Assembly: GCF_016901015.1 (NCBI RefSeq) | Contig: NZ_JAFEUP010000007.1 | Location: 124,001-188,000, forward strand | From: Zestomonas insulae | GTDB taxonomy: Bacteria; Pseudomonadota; Gammaproteobacteria; Pseudomonadales; Pseudomonadaceae | Direction: 5' to 3' | DNA: 64,000 nt | In this document: one piece after another, positions 20,201-27,423 of the stretch | How positions within the stretch are numbered: the first letter of the stretch is position 1 | Layout of the letters: every line of letters begins with the position of its first letter | Made by a program: the position numbers and the translations under genes | Notes under the pieces: model-generated | What the model saw: only the letters and a program-made list of their open reading frames with translations | Told to the model about the DNA's origin: nothing | The model's database searches: none

Positions 20201-21694
20201 ATGTCTTTGGCCATCGTCCACAGCCGCGCGCTGGTTGGCGTCGAGGCGCCTGCCGTCACCGTCGAAGCCCACCTCGCCAATGGCTTGCCGTCGCTGACCC
20301 TGGTCGGCCTGCCGGAAGCCAGCGTCAAGGAAAGCAAGGACCGCGTGCGCAGCGCGATCCTCAACAGCGGCTTCGATTTCCCGCCCAGGCGGATCACCCT
20401 GAATCTCGCCCCGGCCGACCTGCCGAAGGACGGCGGGCGCTTCGACCTCGCCGTCGCCCTGGGCATCCTCGCCGCCAGCGGCCAGCTGCCCGGCGACGGC
20501 CTCGACGGTGTCGAGTGCCTCGGCGAGCTGGCGTTGTCCGGCGCGTTGCGCCCGGTCCAGGGCGTGCTGCCGGCGGCACTCGCCGCACGTGCCGCGGGAC
20601 GTACGCTGATCGTGCCCAAGGCGAATGCCGAAGAAGCCAGCCTGGCCTCCGGCCTGCGCGTGCTGGCCGCCGAGCATTTGCTGGAACTCGCCGCGCACTT
20701 CAACGGCAGCGCACCACTGCCGACCTACCAGGCCCAGGGCCTGCTGCGCCGCACCCCACCGTATCCGGACCTCGCCGAGGTGCAGGGCCAGGTCGCCGCC
20801 AAGCGCGCCCTGCTGATCGCCGCCGCCGGTGGCCACAACCTACTGTTCAGCGGCCCGCCTGGCACCGGCAAGACCCTGCTGGCCAGCCGTCTGCCCGGCC
20901 TGCTGCCGCCGCTCGACGAGGCCGAGGCGCTGCAGGTCGCTGCCATCCATTCGGTGGCCAGTCATGCGCCGCTGGATTGCTGGCCGCAGCGGCCGTTCCG
21001 CACCCCGCACCACTCGGCCTCCGGGCCGGCGCTGGTCGGCGGCGGCAGTCGCCCGCAACCCGGCGAGATCACCCTCGCCCACCAGGGTGTGCTGTTTCTC
21101 GATGAGCTGCCGGAATTCGACCGCAAGGTGCTGGAGGTGCTGCGCGAGCCGCTGGAGACCGGGCACATCGTCATTGCCCGGGCGCGCGACAAGGTGCGCT
21201 TCCCGGCCCGTTTCCAGCTGGTGGCGGCGATGAACCCCTGCCCATGCGGCTACCTCAACGACCCCAACGGCCGCTGCCGCTGCACCCCGGAGCAGGTGCA
21301 GCGCTACCGCGCCAAACTATCCGGGCCGCTGCTCGACCGCATCGACCTGCACCTCACCGTGGCGCGCGAGACCACCTCGCTGCAGGCGCCGCCGAGCGCC
21401 GGGCAGGACAGCGCCAGCGTCGCCGCCCAGGTCGCGTGCGCGCGCCAGCGCCAGCTGCAGCGTCAGGGCTGCGCCAACGCGGTGCTCGACCTGCCCGGCC
21501 TGCGCCAGCACTGCGCCCTGCCGCTGGACGATCAGACCTGGCTGGAGCAGGCCTGCGAACGCCTCAACCTGTCGCTGCGCGCCGCGCACCGCCTGCTCAA
21601 GGTGGCGCGCACCCTGGCCGACCTCGACGAGGCCGCGACGATCGGCCGCGCGCACCTCGCCGAAGCCCTGCAGTACCGCCCGGCGGCGGGCTGA
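20201..21694 (+). CDS. comM: YifB family Mg chelatase-like AAA ATPase (ComM)
   Basis: The 497-residue protein has the YifB layout: an N-terminal Lon-protease-like S5 fold (about 1-170), an AAA+ Mg-chelatase domain with Walker A GPPGTGKT at 218-225 and Walker B GVLFLDELPEF near 298, a cysteine cluster NPCPCGYLNDPNGRCRC, and a C-terminal lid. ComM is a hexameric branch-migration helicase that helps integrate transforming DNA. AAGGAG precedes the ATG by 5 bases. It converges on the SRPBCC gene with 8 bases between and no visible terminator. Confidence 0.94.
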   Translation: MSLAIVHSRALVGVEAPAVTVEAHLANGLPSLTLVGLPEASVKESKDRVRSAILNSGFDFPPRRITLNLAPADLPKDGGRFDLAVALGILAASGQLPGDGLDGVECLGELALSGALRPVQGVLPAALAARAAGRTLIVPKANAEEASLASGLRVLAAEHLLELAAHFNGSAPLPTYQAQGLLRRTPPYPDLAEVQGQVAAKRALLIAAAGGHNLLFSGPPGTGKTLLASRLPGLLPPLDEAEALQVAAIHSVASHAPLDCWPQRPFRTPHHSASGPALVGGGSRPQPGEITLAHQGVLFLDELPEFDRKVLEVLREPLETGHIVIARARDKVRFPARFQLVAAMNPCPCGYLNDPNGRCRCTPEQVQRYRAKLSGPLLDRIDLHLTVARETTSLQAPPSAGQDSASVAAQVACARQRQLQRQGCANAVLDLPGLRQHCALPLDDQTWLEQACERLNLSLRAAHRLLKVARTLADLDEAATIGRAHLAEALQYRPAAG

Positions 21695-21702
21695 GCGCGG
21701 AG

Positions 21703-22230
21703 CTACTGGGCCGGCTCGACCCGCGCGCGGAGCTGCTGCAGGCCCTGCTCGAAGGCCCCGCCAACCATCTTGTCGGGGTCGCAGACCAGGCCCATGGCCT
21801 TGGCGAAGAAGTTGTTGCGCCCATCCAGCCCCCACACCACGCGCGTGCCGTTGCCTTCCGGCTGCAGGTGGAATTCGGCGACGCTGCTGGCGCGGAACGG
21901 CTTGAGAAACTCCAGCTGCATACGCACCAGCTGCTGCGGACGGCTCTCGGTGATGGTCGCGTTGCCTTCGCCGACCTCCTTGTTGCCGGCCCAGCGGTAC
22001 ACCGCGCCGGTGCCGCTGGCCGCACCTTCGTAGTCGACGCGCATGTTCGGGTCGCGGGCGAACGGCGACCATTGATGCCATTGGCGGAAATCGTTGATCT
22101 GCGCGAACACCTCGGCAGGCGGCGCCTGGATCAGCGTGCTGCGTTCGATATGGAAGCTCTCCGGCTGGCGCCCCACGAGCACGGCCAGGCCGGCGAGCAG
22201 CAGGGCGACGACGATCAGTACGGTCAACAT
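21703..22230 (-). CDS. SRPBCC family protein (polyketide cyclase/START-like)
   Basis: The 175-residue protein has an N-terminal membrane or signal segment (about 1-23) and an SRPBCC fold: IQAPPAEVFAQINDFRQWHQWSPF near the start, a central RWAGNKEVGEGNATI strand pair and a C-terminal helix. SRPBCC proteins form a hydrophobic pocket for lipids or aromatic ligands; the ligand here is unknown. I prefer the ATG at 22230 because AGAGGA lies 6 bases upstream; an ATG at 22245 adds five residues. It is the last gene of the ECF42-linked cluster. Confidence 0.82.
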   Translation of the reverse strand: MLTVLIVVALLLAGLAVLVGRQPESFHIERSTLIQAPPAEVFAQINDFRQWHQWSPFARDPNMRVDYEGAASGTGAVYRWAGNKEVGEGNATITESRPQQLVRMQLEFLKPFRASSVAEFHLQPEGNGTRVVWGLDGRNNFFAKAMGLVCDPDKMVGGAFEQGLQQLRARVEPAQ

Positions 22231-22278
22231 GCGCGGTCCTCTCATGGCAGTTTCTCGATGGCAGGCGAGCGCGCCCGC

Positions 22279-22725
22279 TCAGGGTTGGGCATCGAAGATC
22301 GCCTGGCCGCTGGCGATGTCGATCGGGAACGAGAAATGCTCGTGGTCGATCAGCCAGCGGCCCTGCTCGCGGCGCAGCCCCTGGGTGACCCGCGACCAGC
22401 TGCCCTGAGCATTGCCCTCGGCGTCGGTGCCGCCGCAGTGGCCGAGGTAGTGGACGATGGCCAGGTCGCCGCTGACCGCGATCTTCTGCTCGCGCACCTC
22501 GTAGGTCGGCAGGCCCGGGCACATCGCCATGCACGCTTCCCAGTGCACGCGGTAGGCGTCGCGGCCGTTGAAGCGCAGCTGGCTGATCGCGTCGAAGGCG
22601 ACGATGTCCTCGGTGTAGGTGGACACCACGGTGGCGACATCCTTGGCGAGGAAGCCGCGCAGCCAGGTGGCGAGCACGGCGGCGATCTGCGCCTGTTCGG
22701 TGGATGCGGGGGTGGCAGTGTTCAT
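22279..22725 (-). CDS. SnoaL-like/SgcJ-type NTF2-fold protein
   Basis: The 148-residue protein has the NTF2-like cone fold: an N-terminal helix (ATWLRGFLAKDVATVVSTYTEDIV in part), FNGRDAYRVHWEACMAM, and paired C-terminal strands ending GRWLIDHEHFSFPI. The last segment is typical of the SgcJ/EcaC or ketosteroid-isomerase-like group. Such proteins bind small hydrophobic ligands or act as isomerases; no substrate can be assigned. It starts 12 bases after the DUF899 stop, which implies coupled translation. Confidence 0.83.
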   Translation of the reverse strand: MNTATPASTEQAQIAAVLATWLRGFLAKDVATVVSTYTEDIVAFDAISQLRFNGRDAYRVHWEACMAMCPGLPTYEVREQKIAVSGDLAIVHYLGHCGGTDAEGNAQGSWSRVTQGLRREQGRWLIDHEHFSFPIDIASGQAIFDAQP

Positions 22726-22737
22726 CGGCGTTCTCCG

Positions 22738-23526
22738 TCAGGCGCTGGTGGGTGAGGCGGCGCAGCAATCGTGCTCGACTGGCGCGCCGTATTGATCGTG
22801 CAGGCGGGTCCAGTTCATCCCCGCGCCATGCAGGTCGGGCATGCCGTCCCAGCCTTCGCCGCGGCCGAAGGGAGTGAGGTCGAGGTAGTTGTAGGTGCCG
22901 AGCAGCAGGTCGAGGCCGCGGCCGTAGCTCGAGTAGCTGTGGAACACCTGCGCGCCGTCGCGCAGGAACACGCTGACCCCGGGCTGTTCGCCGGCCAGGT
23001 GGTAGTCGAGGCCGAGGCGCTGCAACTCCGCCGCGTCACGGTAGTTGTACTGCACCGGGGCGACCGCGGCGTCGAGGGTCACGTGGAAGTCATAGTTGAA
23101 CGGACTGGCGAACGACGAGTACCAAGGCAGCGTCCAGCCCATGCGCCGCTGGAACGCCTGCAGTTCAGCCAGCGGCGCGCGCGAGACCAGCACCAGGCTG
23201 GTGTCGCGCGCGTGCAGGTGGGCCAGGTGGCCGATGTTGTCGACGACGAACGAGCAGCCCGGGCAGCCCTCGCCGCGGTCGCGGTGGAACATGAAGTGGT
23301 AGACGATCAGCTGCCGGCGGCCGGCGAACAGCTCGAGCAACGGCACCTCGCCGTGCGGACCGTCGAAGCGGTAGTCCTGCTCGATGGCGACCATCGGCAG
23401 CGCGCGACGCTGGACGTTGAGGCGGTCACGCGCGGCGGTCAGGGCCTTCTCCTCGGCAAGCAGCGCAGTGCGCGCGCGCAACCACTCGGCGCGTGACACC
23501 ACGGGCGGCAGGTCAGGACGGTTCAT
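22738..23526 (-). CDS. DUF899 family thioredoxin-like protein
   Basis: The 262-residue protein fits DUF899: N-terminal PPVVSRAEWLRARTALLAEEK, a conserved PMVAIEQDYRFDGPHGE strand, HFMFHRDRGEGCPGCSF (about 76-92) and a C-terminal RGLDLLLGTYNYLDLTPFGR. The GCPGC motif is a CxxC at the thioredoxin active-site position, preceded by the family's mid-domain histidines, so redox chemistry is possible but not shown. A clear TGGAGGA ribosome site precedes the start. It is 34 bases after the YciI gene. Confidence 0.87.
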   Translation of the reverse strand: MNRPDLPPVVSRAEWLRARTALLAEEKALTAARDRLNVQRRALPMVAIEQDYRFDGPHGEVPLLELFAGRRQLIVYHFMFHRDRGEGCPGCSFVVDNIGHLAHLHARDTSLVLVSRAPLAELQAFQRRMGWTLPWYSSFASPFNYDFHVTLDAAVAPVQYNYRDAAELQRLGLDYHLAGEQPGVSVFLRDGAQVFHSYSSYGRGLDLLLGTYNYLDLTPFGRGEGWDGMPDLHGAGMNWTRLHDQYGAPVEHDCCAASPTSA

Positions 23527-23560
23527 GACGATTTCCTCCAGGGCGGATGGATGCGGCGGC

Positions 23561-23905
23561 TCAGACCTGCAGCTGGCGCACCGGACGGACTTCCACGCAG
23601 CCGACGCGCGCCGCCGGGATCTTGCCGGCCAGCTGCAGGGCTTCGTTGAGGTCTCGGGCGTCGATCAGGTAGAAGCCGGCGAGCTGCTCCTTGGTTTCAG
23701 CGAACGGGCCGTCGGTGATCGACAGCTTGCCGCCGCGCATGCGCACAGTGGTGGCGCTGCGCACCGGCTCGAGCGCCTCGGCGGCGACCAGCCGGCCGCT
23801 GGCGCGCACCGATTCGCAGTAGTCGTTGCATTCAGCGTCGTGCGGGCTGTCGGGCTGGCTGTGCATCAGTTGCTCGGAGCCGTAGACCAGACACAGGTAT
23901 TTCAT
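23561..23905 (-). CDS. YciI family protein with DGPF motif
   Basis: The 114-residue protein belongs to the YCII-related, DGPF-domain group (motif TDGPFAETKEQLAGFYLI at about 64-81), with the usual start MKYLCLVYGSEQ. The fold is a ferredoxin-like dimer related to muconolactone isomerase; the enzyme role is unknown. This gene is the standard partner of ECF42 sigma factors. It has its own ECF-type promoter in the 107-base gap upstream and heads the yciI-DUF899-SnoaL-SRPBCC group. Confidence 0.9.
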   Translation of the reverse strand: MKYLCLVYGSEQLMHSQPDSPHDAECNDYCESVRASGRLVAAEALEPVRSATTVRMRGGKLSITDGPFAETKEQLAGFYLIDARDLNEALQLAGKIPAARVGCVEVRPVRQLQV

Positions 23906-23945
23906 GGCACATCTCCTTGGGTGGCGGAGCCGGGACTTACTCACT

Positions 23946-23973
23946 AGTCGCCGTGCAGTTCGGCGAATCGACA
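23946..23973 (-). promoter_or_regulatory. ECF42-type promoter of the DGPF operon
   Basis: On the minus strand, TTGTCGA (-35), a 17-base spacer, then CGACT (-10). The -10 end lies about 40 bases before the YciI ATG. TGTCGA and CGA(C/T) are the ECF42 target elements as I remember them. The same pattern stands before the sigma gene. Confidence 0.7.
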
Positions 23974-24012
23974 AGCGCGGAAAATTTCTTTGCTCCGCAC
24001 GGGCGCGCCGCC

Positions 24013-25260
24013 CTAGGCGTCGCCCAGCTCGGCCAGACGGCCCTCGAGGTACTGCCGATCGGCGCCCTGCTGGGTCAGTTCGAGGGCGCGTCGGTAGGCC
24101 GCCGCGGCCGCGGCGCGGCGCCCCAGGCGCCGGCAGAAATCGGCGCGCGCGGCGTGTGCCAAGTGGTAGTCGGCCAGCTCGCCGCGCGCCAGTAGTGCAT
24201 CGATCAGCGCCAAGCCGGCCTCCGGACCGTCGCGCATGCCGAGTGCCACCGCGCGGTTCAGCTCGATCACCGGCGACGGCTGCAGGCGCTGCAGCGCGTC
24301 GTAGAGGCCGACGATCTGCGCCCAGTCGGTCTGCGCGGCGCTCTCCGCCTCGGCATGCACCGCGGCGATCGCCGCCTGCAGGCTGTAAGCGCCGAAGCGT
24401 CGCGAACGCAGCGCGGCGAGCACCAGCGCATCGCCCTCGCCGATCAGCGCGCGGTCCCACAGCGCGCGGTCCTGCTCTTCGAGCAGCACCGGCGCGCCGC
24501 TGGCCGACAGCCGCGCCGGGCGGCGCGCCTCGTGCAGCAGCATCAGCGCCAGCAGGCCCTGGACCTCCGGTTCGGGGAGCAGCTCGAAGAGCAGCCGGCC
24601 GAGACGGATCGCCTCGCTGGACAGCTGGCTGCGCGTCAACGCTTCGCCGAAGGAGGCGAAGTAGCCCTCGTTGAACACCAGGTAGACCACCCGCAGCACC
24701 GACTCCAGGCGCTCGGCCAGCTCGCCGCGCCCGGGCACCTCGTAGGGAATGCGCGCCTCGCGGATCTTCGCCTTGGCGCGCACGATGCGCTGCGCCACGG
24801 TGCTCGGCGTGGTCAGGTAGGCGCGGGCGATTTCCTCGGTGGTCAGGTCGCAGACCTCGCGCAGGGTCAGCGCCACCTGGGCGTCGGCGGCCAGCGCCGG
24901 GTGGCAGCAGGTGAACAGCAGGCGCAGCCGGTCGTCTTCCAGGTGCTGCTGATCGAGGTCCACCTCGACGGCCAGCGCGGCCAGTTCCGGCAGGTCGTCG
25001 AGCGGCCGGAAGCGCGCCTGGCGGCGCAGCCCGTCGATCGCCTTGAAGCGCCCGGCGGAGACCAGCCAGGCGCGAGGGTTGGCCGGCTCACCGTCGCGCG
25101 GCCACTGCTCCATGGCGGCGCGAAAGGCTTCGTGCAGCGCTTCCTCGGCCAGGTCGAAATCGCCGAGCAGGCGAATCAGGGTCGCCAGCACGCGGCGCGA
25201 CTCGCGGCGATAGAGCTCCTCCAGCCCGGCATGCGGGCCTTGGGCAGCGTGAATATTCAT
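24013..25260 (-). CDS. ECF42-type RNA polymerase sigma factor with C-terminal TPR-like extension
   Basis: The 415-residue protein has sigma region 2 (about 10-80, with FDLAEEALHEAFRAAMEQWP and PRAWLVSAGRFKAIDGLRR), sigma-4 (about 110-175, ALTLREVCDLTTEEIARAYL and VAQRIVRAKAKIREARIP), then a long C-terminal half (about 190-415, including LLALMLLHEARRPAR, SPVIELNRAVAL and a final helical repeat resembling TPR). This layout, with no anti-sigma gene nearby and a DGPF neighbour, is the ECF42 type, where the extension is thought to be needed for activity. GGGGGA precedes the ATG at 25260. Confidence 0.92.
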   Translation of the reverse strand: MNIHAAQGPHAGLEELYRRESRRVLATLIRLLGDFDLAEEALHEAFRAAMEQWPRDGEPANPRAWLVSAGRFKAIDGLRRQARFRPLDDLPELAALAVEVDLDQQHLEDDRLRLLFTCCHPALAADAQVALTLREVCDLTTEEIARAYLTTPSTVAQRIVRAKAKIREARIPYEVPGRGELAERLESVLRVVYLVFNEGYFASFGEALTRSQLSSEAIRLGRLLFELLPEPEVQGLLALMLLHEARRPARLSASGAPVLLEEQDRALWDRALIGEGDALVLAALRSRRFGAYSLQAAIAAVHAEAESAAQTDWAQIVGLYDALQRLQPSPVIELNRAVALGMRDGPEAGLALIDALLARGELADYHLAHAARADFCRRLGRRAAAAAAYRRALELTQQGADRQYLEGRLAELGDA

Positions 25261-25311
25261 CTCATCCCCCTTGGTGCTAGCCTTCATCCTTGCTGGCGTA
25301 GCGTACTCTCT

Positions 25312-25339
25312 GGTCGTTCCGCGGGATCGGTTTTCGACC
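25312..25339 (-). promoter_or_regulatory. ECF42-type promoter of the sigma gene (autoregulation)
   Basis: On the minus strand, GGTCGA, a 17-base spacer, then CGACC; the -10 end is about 52 bases before the sigma ATG. It shares GTCGA-N17-CGAC exactly with the site before the YciI gene, differing mainly in the first -35 base. Confidence 0.6.
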
Positions 25340-25461
25340 GACGGATCAGGGGTAAAAACTATTAGATGATATTGGTCAATTCGTAAAAGCTATCGAAATT
25401 TGTTAGCATGCTTAGCTTCTCCGCCCTTGGCGGCCATCCGATAACAAGGAGAGCTAGCTCA

Positions 25462-27423
25462 ATGGAGGCCAAACAGTCTTCGCTCAATCCACCGGTATTC
25501 TTCGGCTCCGCGATCCTCATCGTCGCCCTGGTGCTGTACAGCGTGTTCTTCCAGGCGCAGGCGCAACAGCTGTTTGCCCAGCTGCAGCACTGGATCATCG
25601 ATACTGCCAGTTGGTTCTACGTGCTCACCGTGGCACTGATCCTGATCAGCGTGGTATTCCTCGCGGTCAGCCGTTACGGCGACCTCAAGCTCGGCCCCGA
25701 CCACAGCCGGCCGGATTACCGCAATGTCACCTGGTTCGCCATGCTGTTTTCCGCCGGCATGGGCATCGGCCTGATGTTCTTCGGCGTCGCCGAACCGCTG
25801 ATGCACTTCAGTTCGCCGCCGGTGGGCGCCGCCAACACCGTGCAGGCCGCCCGCGAGGCGATGAAGCTGACGTTCTTCCACTGGGGCCTGCACGCCTGGG
25901 CGATCTACGCCATCGTCGCGCTGATCCTGGCGTTCTTCAGCTTTCGCCATGACCTGCCGCTGACCCTGCGTTCAGCGCTCTATCCGTTGATCGGCGAACG
26001 CATCCACGGACCGATTGGCCATGCGGTGGATATCTTCGCCATCTTCGGCACGGTGTTCGGCGTCGCCACCTCGCTTGGCTACGGCGTGACGCAGATCAAC
26101 AGCGGCCTGCACCATGTGTTCGGGCTGCCGATCAGCCTGCCGGTGCAGGTTGGCCTGATCGCCGGCACCTGCGCACTGGCCACGCTGTCGGTGGCCAGCG
26201 GCCTGGACAAGGGCATTCGCATCCTTTCCGAGCTGAACCTGGCGCTCGCGGTCCTGCTGTTGCTGTTCGTGCTGGCGCTGGGGCCGACGGTGTTCCTGCT
26301 CAAGACCTTCGTGCAGAACACCGGCGGCTACCTGTCGGAGATCGTCAGCAAGACCTTCAACCTCTACGCCTACGAGCCAACCGACTGGATCGGTGGCTGG
26401 ACCCTGCTCTACTGGGGCTGGTGGCTGTCCTGGTCGCCCTTCGTCGGCCTGTTCATCGCGCGCATCTCGCGCGGCCGGACGATTCGCGAGTTCATCTGCG
26501 GCGTGCTGTTCGTGCCCGCCGGCTTCACCCTGCTGTGGATGACCGTGTTCGGCGACAGTGCCATTCATATGGTGCTCAACGAAGGCATCAGCAGCCTGGC
26601 CGCGACGGTGAACGGCGACAGCTCGCTGGCGCTGTTTGCCTTCCTCGAGCACTTCCCGCTGTCCAGCGTGCTCTCGCTGCTCGCGGTGTGCATGGTGGTG
26701 GTGTTCTTCGTCACCTCGGCGGACTCCGGCGCGCTGGTGGTGGACATGTTGGCCTCCGGCGGCCGATCCGATACGCCGCTGTGGCAACGGCTGTTCTGGT
26801 CGATCCTGATCGGCGTGGTGGCCATCGCCCTGCTCCTCGCCGACGGCCTCAAGGCGCTTCAGACCGCCACCATCGCCAGCGCCCTGCCGTTCTCCATCGT
26901 CCTGCTGGCAGCGATCTGGGGCCTGTTCAAGGCGCTGCGCCTGGATGCCACCAAGCGCGACATCCGCTACCAGGCGCTGAATATCAGCCCGCTCCCCCGC
27001 CAGCACGGTGCCTGGCAGCGCCGCCTGCAGAATCTGGTGACCTTCCCCAGTCGCGCGCAGGTTCGCCAATTCCTCAGCGGCACAGTGCACGCGGCCAGCG
27101 AAGCGGTGGCCGAAGAGCTACGCAAACGTGGCCTGAACGCCAGTGTCGAGGGCGGCGAGGATGGCCGGGTGCGCTTGGTGGTGGCCCACGGGGCGGAAAC
27201 CGACTTCCTCTATGAGGTGCGCCCGCGCGCCCTTCTGCAGCCGAGTTTCGTGCTGCTGGATGGCAAGGAGCCGGGAGAGGATCAACAGTACTTCCGCGCC
27301 GAGGTGCACCTGCTCGAAGGCGGCCAGGACTACGACCTGATGGGCTGGAGCCGCGACGAGGTGATCGGCGACATCCTCGATCAGTACGAGAAGCACATGC
27401 ACTACCTGCATGTGGTGAGGTAG
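25462..27423 (+). CDS. betT: BCCT family transporter, choline/betaine type
   Basis: The 653-residue inner-membrane protein has 12 predicted helices and the BCCT signature region with WGWWLSWSPFVGLFIARISRGRTIREF (in parts, about 320-350), followed by a large C-terminal cytoplasmic domain (about 500-653). The long C-terminus is typical of BetT choline carriers, where it sets osmotic response. AAGGAG lies 10 bases before the ATG. It is divergent from the ECF42 sigma gene. P. aeruginosa has a choline transporter at this position; the exact substrate remains to be proved. Confidence 0.88.
   Translation: MEAKQSSLNPPVFFGSAILIVALVLYSVFFQAQAQQLFAQLQHWIIDTASWFYVLTVALILISVVFLAVSRYGDLKLGPDHSRPDYRNVTWFAMLFSAGMGIGLMFFGVAEPLMHFSSPPVGAANTVQAAREAMKLTFFHWGLHAWAIYAIVALILAFFSFRHDLPLTLRSALYPLIGERIHGPIGHAVDIFAIFGTVFGVATSLGYGVTQINSGLHHVFGLPISLPVQVGLIAGTCALATLSVASGLDKGIRILSELNLALAVLLLLFVLALGPTVFLLKTFVQNTGGYLSEIVSKTFNLYAYEPTDWIGGWTLLYWGWWLSWSPFVGLFIARISRGRTIREFICGVLFVPAGFTLLWMTVFGDSAIHMVLNEGISSLAATVNGDSSLALFAFLEHFPLSSVLSLLAVCMVVVFFVTSADSGALVVDMLASGGRSDTPLWQRLFWSILIGVVAIALLLADGLKALQTATIASALPFSIVLLAAIWGLFKALRLDATKRDIRYQALNISPLPRQHGAWQRRLQNLVTFPSRAQVRQFLSGTVHAASEAVAEELRKRGLNASVEGGEDGRVRLVVAHGAETDFLYEVRPRALLQPSFVLLDGKEPGEDQQYFRAEVHLLEGGQDYDLMGWSRDEVIGDILDQYEKHMHYLHVVR

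Follow-up and report, generated by a model that had tools for sequence, protein, structure and literature searches.

Sigma factors of the ECF42 type are widespread. According to the accessible parts of a recent review, their activity depends on a C-terminal extension, and a YCII-domain protein is conserved near the group (PMC8999054). The same text proposes that a protein binding to the extension sets ECF42 activity, the YCII protein being a suspect (PMC8999054), and a related suggestion, in the part of PMC9023288 available, is that such binding suppresses activity. In Sinorhizobium meliloti, the three promoters of the ECF42 sigma factor RpoE10 listed in Table 1 of PMC6180224 follow TGTCGG-N17-CGTC, with a spacing of 17 in all three. 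Two promoter sequences printed in that paper end 9 bases after CGTC, one of them in a lower-case letter, which we take to be the transcript start. Glyoxalase-like proteins and a hydrophobic-ligand-binding-domain protein are among the RpoE10 targets named in the available sections, as is an operon located on a different replicon, and RpoE10 is reported there not to activate its own operon (PMC6180224).

Like RpoE10 as described in those sections, the locus studied here has a TPR-extended sigma factor beside a YCII gene and the same 17-base spacer. In contrast to the present elements, the -35 of RpoE10 ends in G and its -10 reads CGTC. In the S. meliloti system, as far as that source extends, yciI and the sigma gene are in one operon with no self-activation, whereas here the sigma gene comes first and yciI has a putative promoter of its own; the predicted target set is also larger here than the one given for RpoE10 in the same excerpt. 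On the evidence of the accessible text of PMC8999054, Streptomyces venezuelae Sven_0747, Sven_4377 and Sven_7131 likewise belong to ECF42 and carry a C-terminal TPR extension that is essential, but they are actinobacterial. Pseudomonas putida KT2440 ECF-10 (ECF42) belongs to the same family and comes from the same organism group. The literature searched contained no Pseudomonas ECF42 regulon with unlinked targets and no target list this broad. Liu 2018, Wu 2019 and Tettmann 2014, the principal ECF42 papers, lay outside that search, which therefore tells us little about what has been published.

Gene organization and identity of the sigma factor

Within the window, which is the whole 64-kb stretch of DNA analysed, the sigma gene is followed on the minus strand by four genes of small-molecule enzyme families, and a transporter gene diverges from it:

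25462..27423, plus strand: BCCT (betaine/carnitine/choline) transporter gene, divergent from the sigma gene; Pfam PF02028 on the longer reading frame 25408-27423
25311..25339, minus strand: candidate self-promoter, GGTCGA-N17-CGACCA; the motif begins 79 bp ahead of the ATG at 25260
24013..25260, minus strand: ECF42-type sigma gene, 415 aa, with sigma2, sigma4 and a TPR-like C-terminal extension; assigned from Pfam Sigma70_r2, Sigma70_r4_2 and DUF6596, orthologues and predicted fold
23945..23973, minus strand: putative yciI promoter, -35 TGTCGA (23973-23968), 17-base spacer, -10 CGAC (23950-23947) followed by TA
23561..23905, minus strand: yciI, YCII/DGPF-type protein of 114 aa, predicted first gene of the target operon; Pfam PF03795
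22738..23526, minus strand: DUF899 gene, predicted second operon gene after a 34-base gap behind yciI; Pfam PF05988
22279..22725, minus strand: SnoaL-like gene, predicted third operon gene after a 12-base gap; Pfam PF13474
21703..22245, minus strand: SRPBCC / polyketide-cyclase-like gene, predicted fourth operon gene after a 33-base gap; Pfam PF10604

An alternative start of the sigma gene at 25287 is possible; the start at 25260 is favoured by its purine-rich leader and by alignment with the start in P. carbonaria (Zestomonas carbonaria in the NCBI taxonomy). The sigma stop codon is followed after 107 bases by yciI, which would form one operon with DUF899, SnoaL and SRPBCC. The only solved relative of yciI obtained by sequence search was 1s7i (PA1349), and such a search gave no solved structure for the DUF899 protein. 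The gap with the candidate self-promoter ends at the BCCT gene, which is not thought to be a target of the sigma factor; the same divergent order is present in the P. carbonaria locus (L031). A tRNA search of the window found none, a search of 21500-25700 found no terminators, and an inverted-repeat search in both motif-bearing gaps gave nothing interpretable.

A reading made from the sequence alone had called the sigma factor ECF42-type, and the protein comparisons strongly support this. Pfam matches to Sigma70_r2 (7e-11) and Sigma70_r4_2 (1e-9) indicate an ECF core with sigma2 and sigma4, and a sequence search for solved structures gave eight chains, all of them sigma factors of this kind. 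Among the 25 NCBIfam matches listed, the ECF superfamily model alone was over its cut-off. Residues 178-413 are helical in the predicted model (mean pLDDT 80.7). Structural matches of this extension include the CHIP-TPR structure 8fyu (Z 13.1, 2.4 A over 119 residues) and 2pl2 (Z 13.4, 3.3 A over 187), and nearly all of the 50 structural matches listed are, judged partly by title, presumably TPR proteins; helical repeats easily reach such Z scores. Foldseek returned no match at E 0.001 or better, and Pfam TPR_2 on the sigma protein was below its cut-off. The model predicts the TPR-repeat C-terminal extension of about 200 residues that is characteristic of ECF42. A YCII protein is encoded nearby as well, by the adjacent PF03795 gene, and no anti-sigma gene was found among the five Pfam-tested neighbours (YCII, DUF899, SnoaL, SRPBCC, BCCT). 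Taken alone, the window holds an ordinary ECF42 locus, a system of a known kind; the wide predicted regulon of unlinked genes described below is the useful part.

Motif copies in the window and chance matches

The sequence-only reading had reported an exact GTCGA-N17-CGAC on the minus strand before both yciI and the sigma gene, and both copies were found as claimed. The yciI-side copy is at 23947-23972 (motif TGTCGATTCGCCGAACTGCACGGCGACTA; TGTCGATTCGCCGAACTGCACGGCGAC when read from 23973) and the sigma-side copy at 25313-25338 (motif GGTCGAAAACCGATCCCGCGGAACGACCA; GGTCGAAAACCGATCCCGCGGAACGAC when read from 25339); no other match occurs in the 64 kb. The motif extends by two bases to CGACYA, the window copies being CGACTA and CGACCA, respectively. 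The base preceding GTCGA is T at the yciI copy and G at the sigma copy, and TGTCGA-N17-CGAY is matched by the yciI copy only. Promoters of ECF42 type have TGTCGA/G, a 17-base spacer and CGAY/CGTC; the agreement first claimed with TGTCGA and CGA[C/T] is exact for the yciI copy and does not extend to the sigma copy, which reads GGTCGA.

The accompanying argument that two copies were unlikely by chance fails for the bare nine bases, of which 0.85 matches are expected per window; at least two occurred in 21 of 100 shuffled windows. Nor did a genome-wide count help it. The bare pattern occurred 86 times in the 4.87-Mb genome versus 81 for the reversed control, and this count was rejected as evidence. 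Because the bare motif is not rare, position and conservation must carry the case. At the genomic density, 0.0013 sense copies are expected in the 150 bp upstream of one given gene. The shuffles and the genome count are what one would expect if both window copies were chance matches in a GC-rich genome, but this explanation is hardly credible against the position of the copies, the conservation of the element in linked loci and the unlinked copies before the same gene families. As a whole explanation, chance was rejected for the yciI copy by its conservation in 59 of 61 linked loci, described in the next section.

One exact TGTCGA-N17-CGAC, TGTCGAGGACAGTCATTCCTCTACGAC, lies within RNase P RNA (RF00010) at C4:659251 of the window's own genome (L121, the only copy on which Rfam was run). 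It recurs in 8 of 10 genomes whose sigma gene lacks a YciI neighbour, in one with a single base changed. This is a chance match kept through conservation of the RNA and a warning for motif counts, and recurrence of an exact site across genomes was rejected as evidence by itself for this reason.

The element before yciI

The yciI-side motif starts 68 bp before the yciI ATG and scores 24.1 bits with a matrix built from 57 distinct sites of named relatives, the window sites being excluded. Among 80 named relatives, a YciI gene adjoins the sigma gene in 61 (sigma first in 45, yciI first in 16), and none is nearby in 19. The element is present in 59 of the 61 linked loci, in the gap before yciI or, where yciI comes first, in the 2.2 kb before the sigma gene. 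It reads TGTCGA..CGAC in 50 of them, TGTCGA..CGAT in 6, GGTCGA..CGAC in 2 and AGTCGA..CGAC in 1. The two misses are L072 and L107; in L072 a strong site precedes the sigma gene instead, with yciI directly behind sigma. The consensus of the 57 distinct sites is TGTCGAWT-N15-CGAC[TC]A, with the final A in 56 and the T before GTCGA in 54. In the sigma-first linked loci the motif start is 60-70 bp before the yciI ATG in 34 of 44, and an exact TGTCGA-N17-CGAC lies within 1.5 kb of the sigma gene in all 24 same-genus loci compared (L002-L025, the window's locus aside). On this evidence a promoter function of the yciI copy is very probable, and the proposal that the sigma factor has a promoter before its DGPF partner is strongly supported.

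GTCGA and TCGAC are each other's reverse complement and lie about two helical turns apart, so the element might also be the operator of an ordinary dimeric regulator; 31 of the 57 distinct sites also give GTCGA-N17-CGAY when the opposite strand is read, one such reverse reading reaching 22.1 bits. The flanks, however, are asymmetric. On the gene strand T stands before GTCGA and YA after CGAC, whereas the reverse readings never have T there (A in 16 and G in 15 of the 31), and the median score is 31.0 bits forward versus -1.1 reverse. The occurrence of the sites also goes with that of the sigma gene, and their spacing equals that of the RpoE10 promoters in the part of PMC6180224 available. Because of the asymmetry we consider a palindromic operator very improbable.

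Distribution across same-genus genomes

The sigma gene was present in 25 of 36 same-genus genomes. This YciI occurred in the same 25 and in 0 of the 11 genomes without the sigma gene (Fisher p = 1.7e-9, a value that ignores relatedness). The extended motif TGTCGAW-N16-CGACYA was found 85 times in the 25 sigma genomes (6 for the reversed controls) and 7 times in the 11 sigma-less ones (4 for the controls), a difference with a Mann-Whitney p of 2e-5, which likewise ignores relatedness. A target-family gene lies behind 69 of the 85 sites and behind 0 of the 7 in sigma-less genomes. By coordinates, 23 of the 85 precede the linked yciI, 10 DUF1428 and 9 the second YciI, and a further 2, in the window's genome, precede VOC and GST. 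The remaining 41 were fetched and compared with reference proteins. A target was found behind 25 of them (DUF899 in 14, VOC PF06983 in 4, RibD_C in 3, GST in 2 and second YciI in 2; one RibD_C case, L259, is only a partial match) and none behind 16, "no target" meaning that the 900 bases downstream gave no tblastn match to any of 14 reference proteins at E 0.001. With the scoring matrix trained on linked named loci only, the 25 fetched targets scored 23.4-34.5 bits, the 16 non-targets 0.6-18.4 and the 7 sigma-less sites 6.4-15.5.

DUF1428 was present in 13 of the 25 sigma genomes (one copy broken) and in 0 of the 11 without the sigma gene. All 12 intact same-genus DUF1428 genes have an element 61-89 bp upstream, with scores of 13.9-28.3 bits. 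The two lowest, 13.9 and 14.6 bits, overlap the non-target range, so targets cannot be told apart cleanly by score alone; a high matrix score is a good mark of a target, but some conserved sites, such as these two, score low. Two DUF1428 copies outside the genus had no site of their own, and one of them (L164) lies inside the sigma-yciI cluster of its genome.

Elements elsewhere in the window's genome

TGTCGA-N17-CGAC occurred 16 times in the window's own genome versus 7 times in reversed form. Forty-nine candidates were scored, namely 48 matches to GTCGA-N17-CGWYYA (reversed control 23) and the DUF1428 site. Eighteen of the 49 were scored without the base before GTCGA; the 2 window copies among them were later scored in full, and the other 16 reached at most 10.7 bits. 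The top five were the second YciI with GFA (36.7 bits), VOC (32.4), GST (28.3), a YciI with CGTC (24.7) and the window yciI (24.1), all some 50-80 bp before a gene of the set. Next in rank came two sites without a visible target gene (18.2 and 18.0), the window sigma site (14.9) and DUF1428 (13.9). The elements outside the window are:

C1:1041653 (L116): before the second yciI, with gfa behind
C1:1042732 (L117): before GST
C1:197493 (L225): before VOC PF06983
C7:230068 (L122): before DUF1428
C4:346465 (L252): before another YciI

DUF1428 and this other YciI gene are probably among the targets in this genome. The regulon had at first been drawn as the sigma gene and the four-gene group; the yciI operon stands, and the set was understated, the same element being present before unlinked genes.

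Sigma genes without a YciI neighbour

In the 19 of 80 named loci with no YciI gene within about 6 kb of sigma, L053 among them, no site was found before the sigma gene (best -4.5 bits). Most of these loci, we assume, belong to the P. mendocina group; one, L073, is a short contig on which the element lies immediately downstream of sigma. In each of the ten genomes of this set that were searched, the element precedes a non-adjacent YciI-family gene. It is a close relative of the window yciI in 8, including 6 of 6 in the mendocina group, and another YciI-family gene in the remaining 2; DUF899 and/or SnoaL follow in 7 of the 8. These yciI genes are on another contig or about 19 kb or more away from sigma. 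With elements before distant YciI genes and none before the orphan sigma genes, the element goes with the target genes rather than with the sigma gene.

Over the ten genomes TGTCGA-N17-CGAC showed no aggregate enrichment (131 versus 124 for the control). Twenty of the 131 sites were fetched. Behind 18 of these lies a target-family gene (a YciI identified by tblastn, except for one GST and one VOC recognized by eye), a proportion that is not a rate because the 20 were picked by eye for spacer likeness. The other 2 lie inside a reading frame that we take to be AroB. The genome of L044 (P. benzenivorans, G064) has several near-identical copies of TGTCGAACCTGTGGATGGC[GA]CGCCGAC, which are probably part of a repeated element, not promoters.

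Proposed regulation and its possible role

The observed elements are conserved, go with the presence of the sigma gene and precede a recurrent set of gene families; from this we infer the following scheme. The active sigma factor with RNA polymerase would start at the yciI element and transcribe yciI, DUF899, SnoaL and SRPBCC as one operon. It would also start at the elements of the distant second yciI (with gfa behind), VOC and GST, and probably of DUF1428 and another YciI. By analogy with RpoE10, transcript starts would be expected near 23938 and 25304. The activity of the sigma factor would probably be set by the binding of a partner protein to the TPR-like C-terminal extension. We hold it to be highly likely that this ECF42 sigma factor uses TGTCGAWT-N15-CGACYA for the yciI operon and for distant small-enzyme genes, with probable feedback.

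We lean, with less confidence, towards the broader view that ECF42 throughout Pseudomonas controls scattered small-molecule enzyme genes and not neighbours only, namely YciI paralogues, DUF899, DUF1428, VOC PF06983, GST, GFA, RibD_C, SnoaL and SRPBCC, some of them glutathione-linked. If so, the ECF42 signal would be an electrophile or a similar toxic metabolite, and the sigma factor of the P. mendocina group, which lacks the usual neighbours, would act entirely on distant targets. As far as family names alone can tell, the target set suggests enzyme activity on small reactive molecules, with a link to glutathione indicated by GST and GFA. The regulon hints at glutathione-linked detoxification, a role now open to testing, and the conserved element together with the natural controls (sigma-less and lone-sigma genomes) gives a concrete gene list to assay.

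The element before the sigma gene

The sigma-side site scores 14.9 bits, below all training sites (19-38 bits, minimum 19.1; the window sites are not in training), and 0 of 1040 shuffles reached this score (maximum 9.8). The self-promoter test covered 52 upstream regions, namely that of the window, those of all 45 sigma-first named loci and those of 6 from 24 further loci, the other 18 having been dropped by eye as duplicates or as loci without yciI. Clear self-sites were present in L031 (27.4 bits), in L040 and L214 (identical, 25.0), in L072 (25.0), in L033 (16.8) and in the window. The upstream region of L074 gave 7.6 bits, and the other 45 regions gave 0.0 or less, inside the shuffle range. 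The transporter-sigma gap of the window aligns without gaps to that of P. carbonaria up to the start codon, with GTCGA and CGA[CT]CA kept and much of the spacer changed.

It is possible that the yciI element is the sole promoter of the two, the sigma copy being decayed or a chance match and the sigma gene being read by another sigma factor. G replaces the conserved T, the score lies within the range of the 16 target-less sites, and 46 of the 52 sigma-first upstream regions have no site of at least 14.9 bits. In addition, RpoE10 is reported in the available part of PMC6180224 without a rise of its own operon, so feedback is not a family rule. We nevertheless regard this explanation as unlikely, though not negligible, against the 0.0013 copies expected in 150 bp, the shuffles and the gap-free match to the 27.4-bit P. 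carbonaria site in the corresponding position. The two lowest conserved DUF1428 sites score no higher, and a consensus scan of 21500-25700 gave no sigma-70-like promoter. The sigma-side copy is probably a real but weak, lineage-restricted feedback promoter, from which the sigma factor would exert positive feedback in this lineage; chance keeps a small probability as its source. Self-activation by the sigma factor, as originally claimed, is probable but less well supported than the yciI promoter: the position, the shuffles and the P. carbonaria alignment favour it, and the missing T, the low score and the many regions without such a site count against it.

Just before the sigma gene in L036, L043, L047, L048, L054 and L064, none of which has a strong self-element, we observed a GTGGTTAGGCTC block followed by a TGG..TCTA-like stretch. 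This block may be another promoter or a regulator site.
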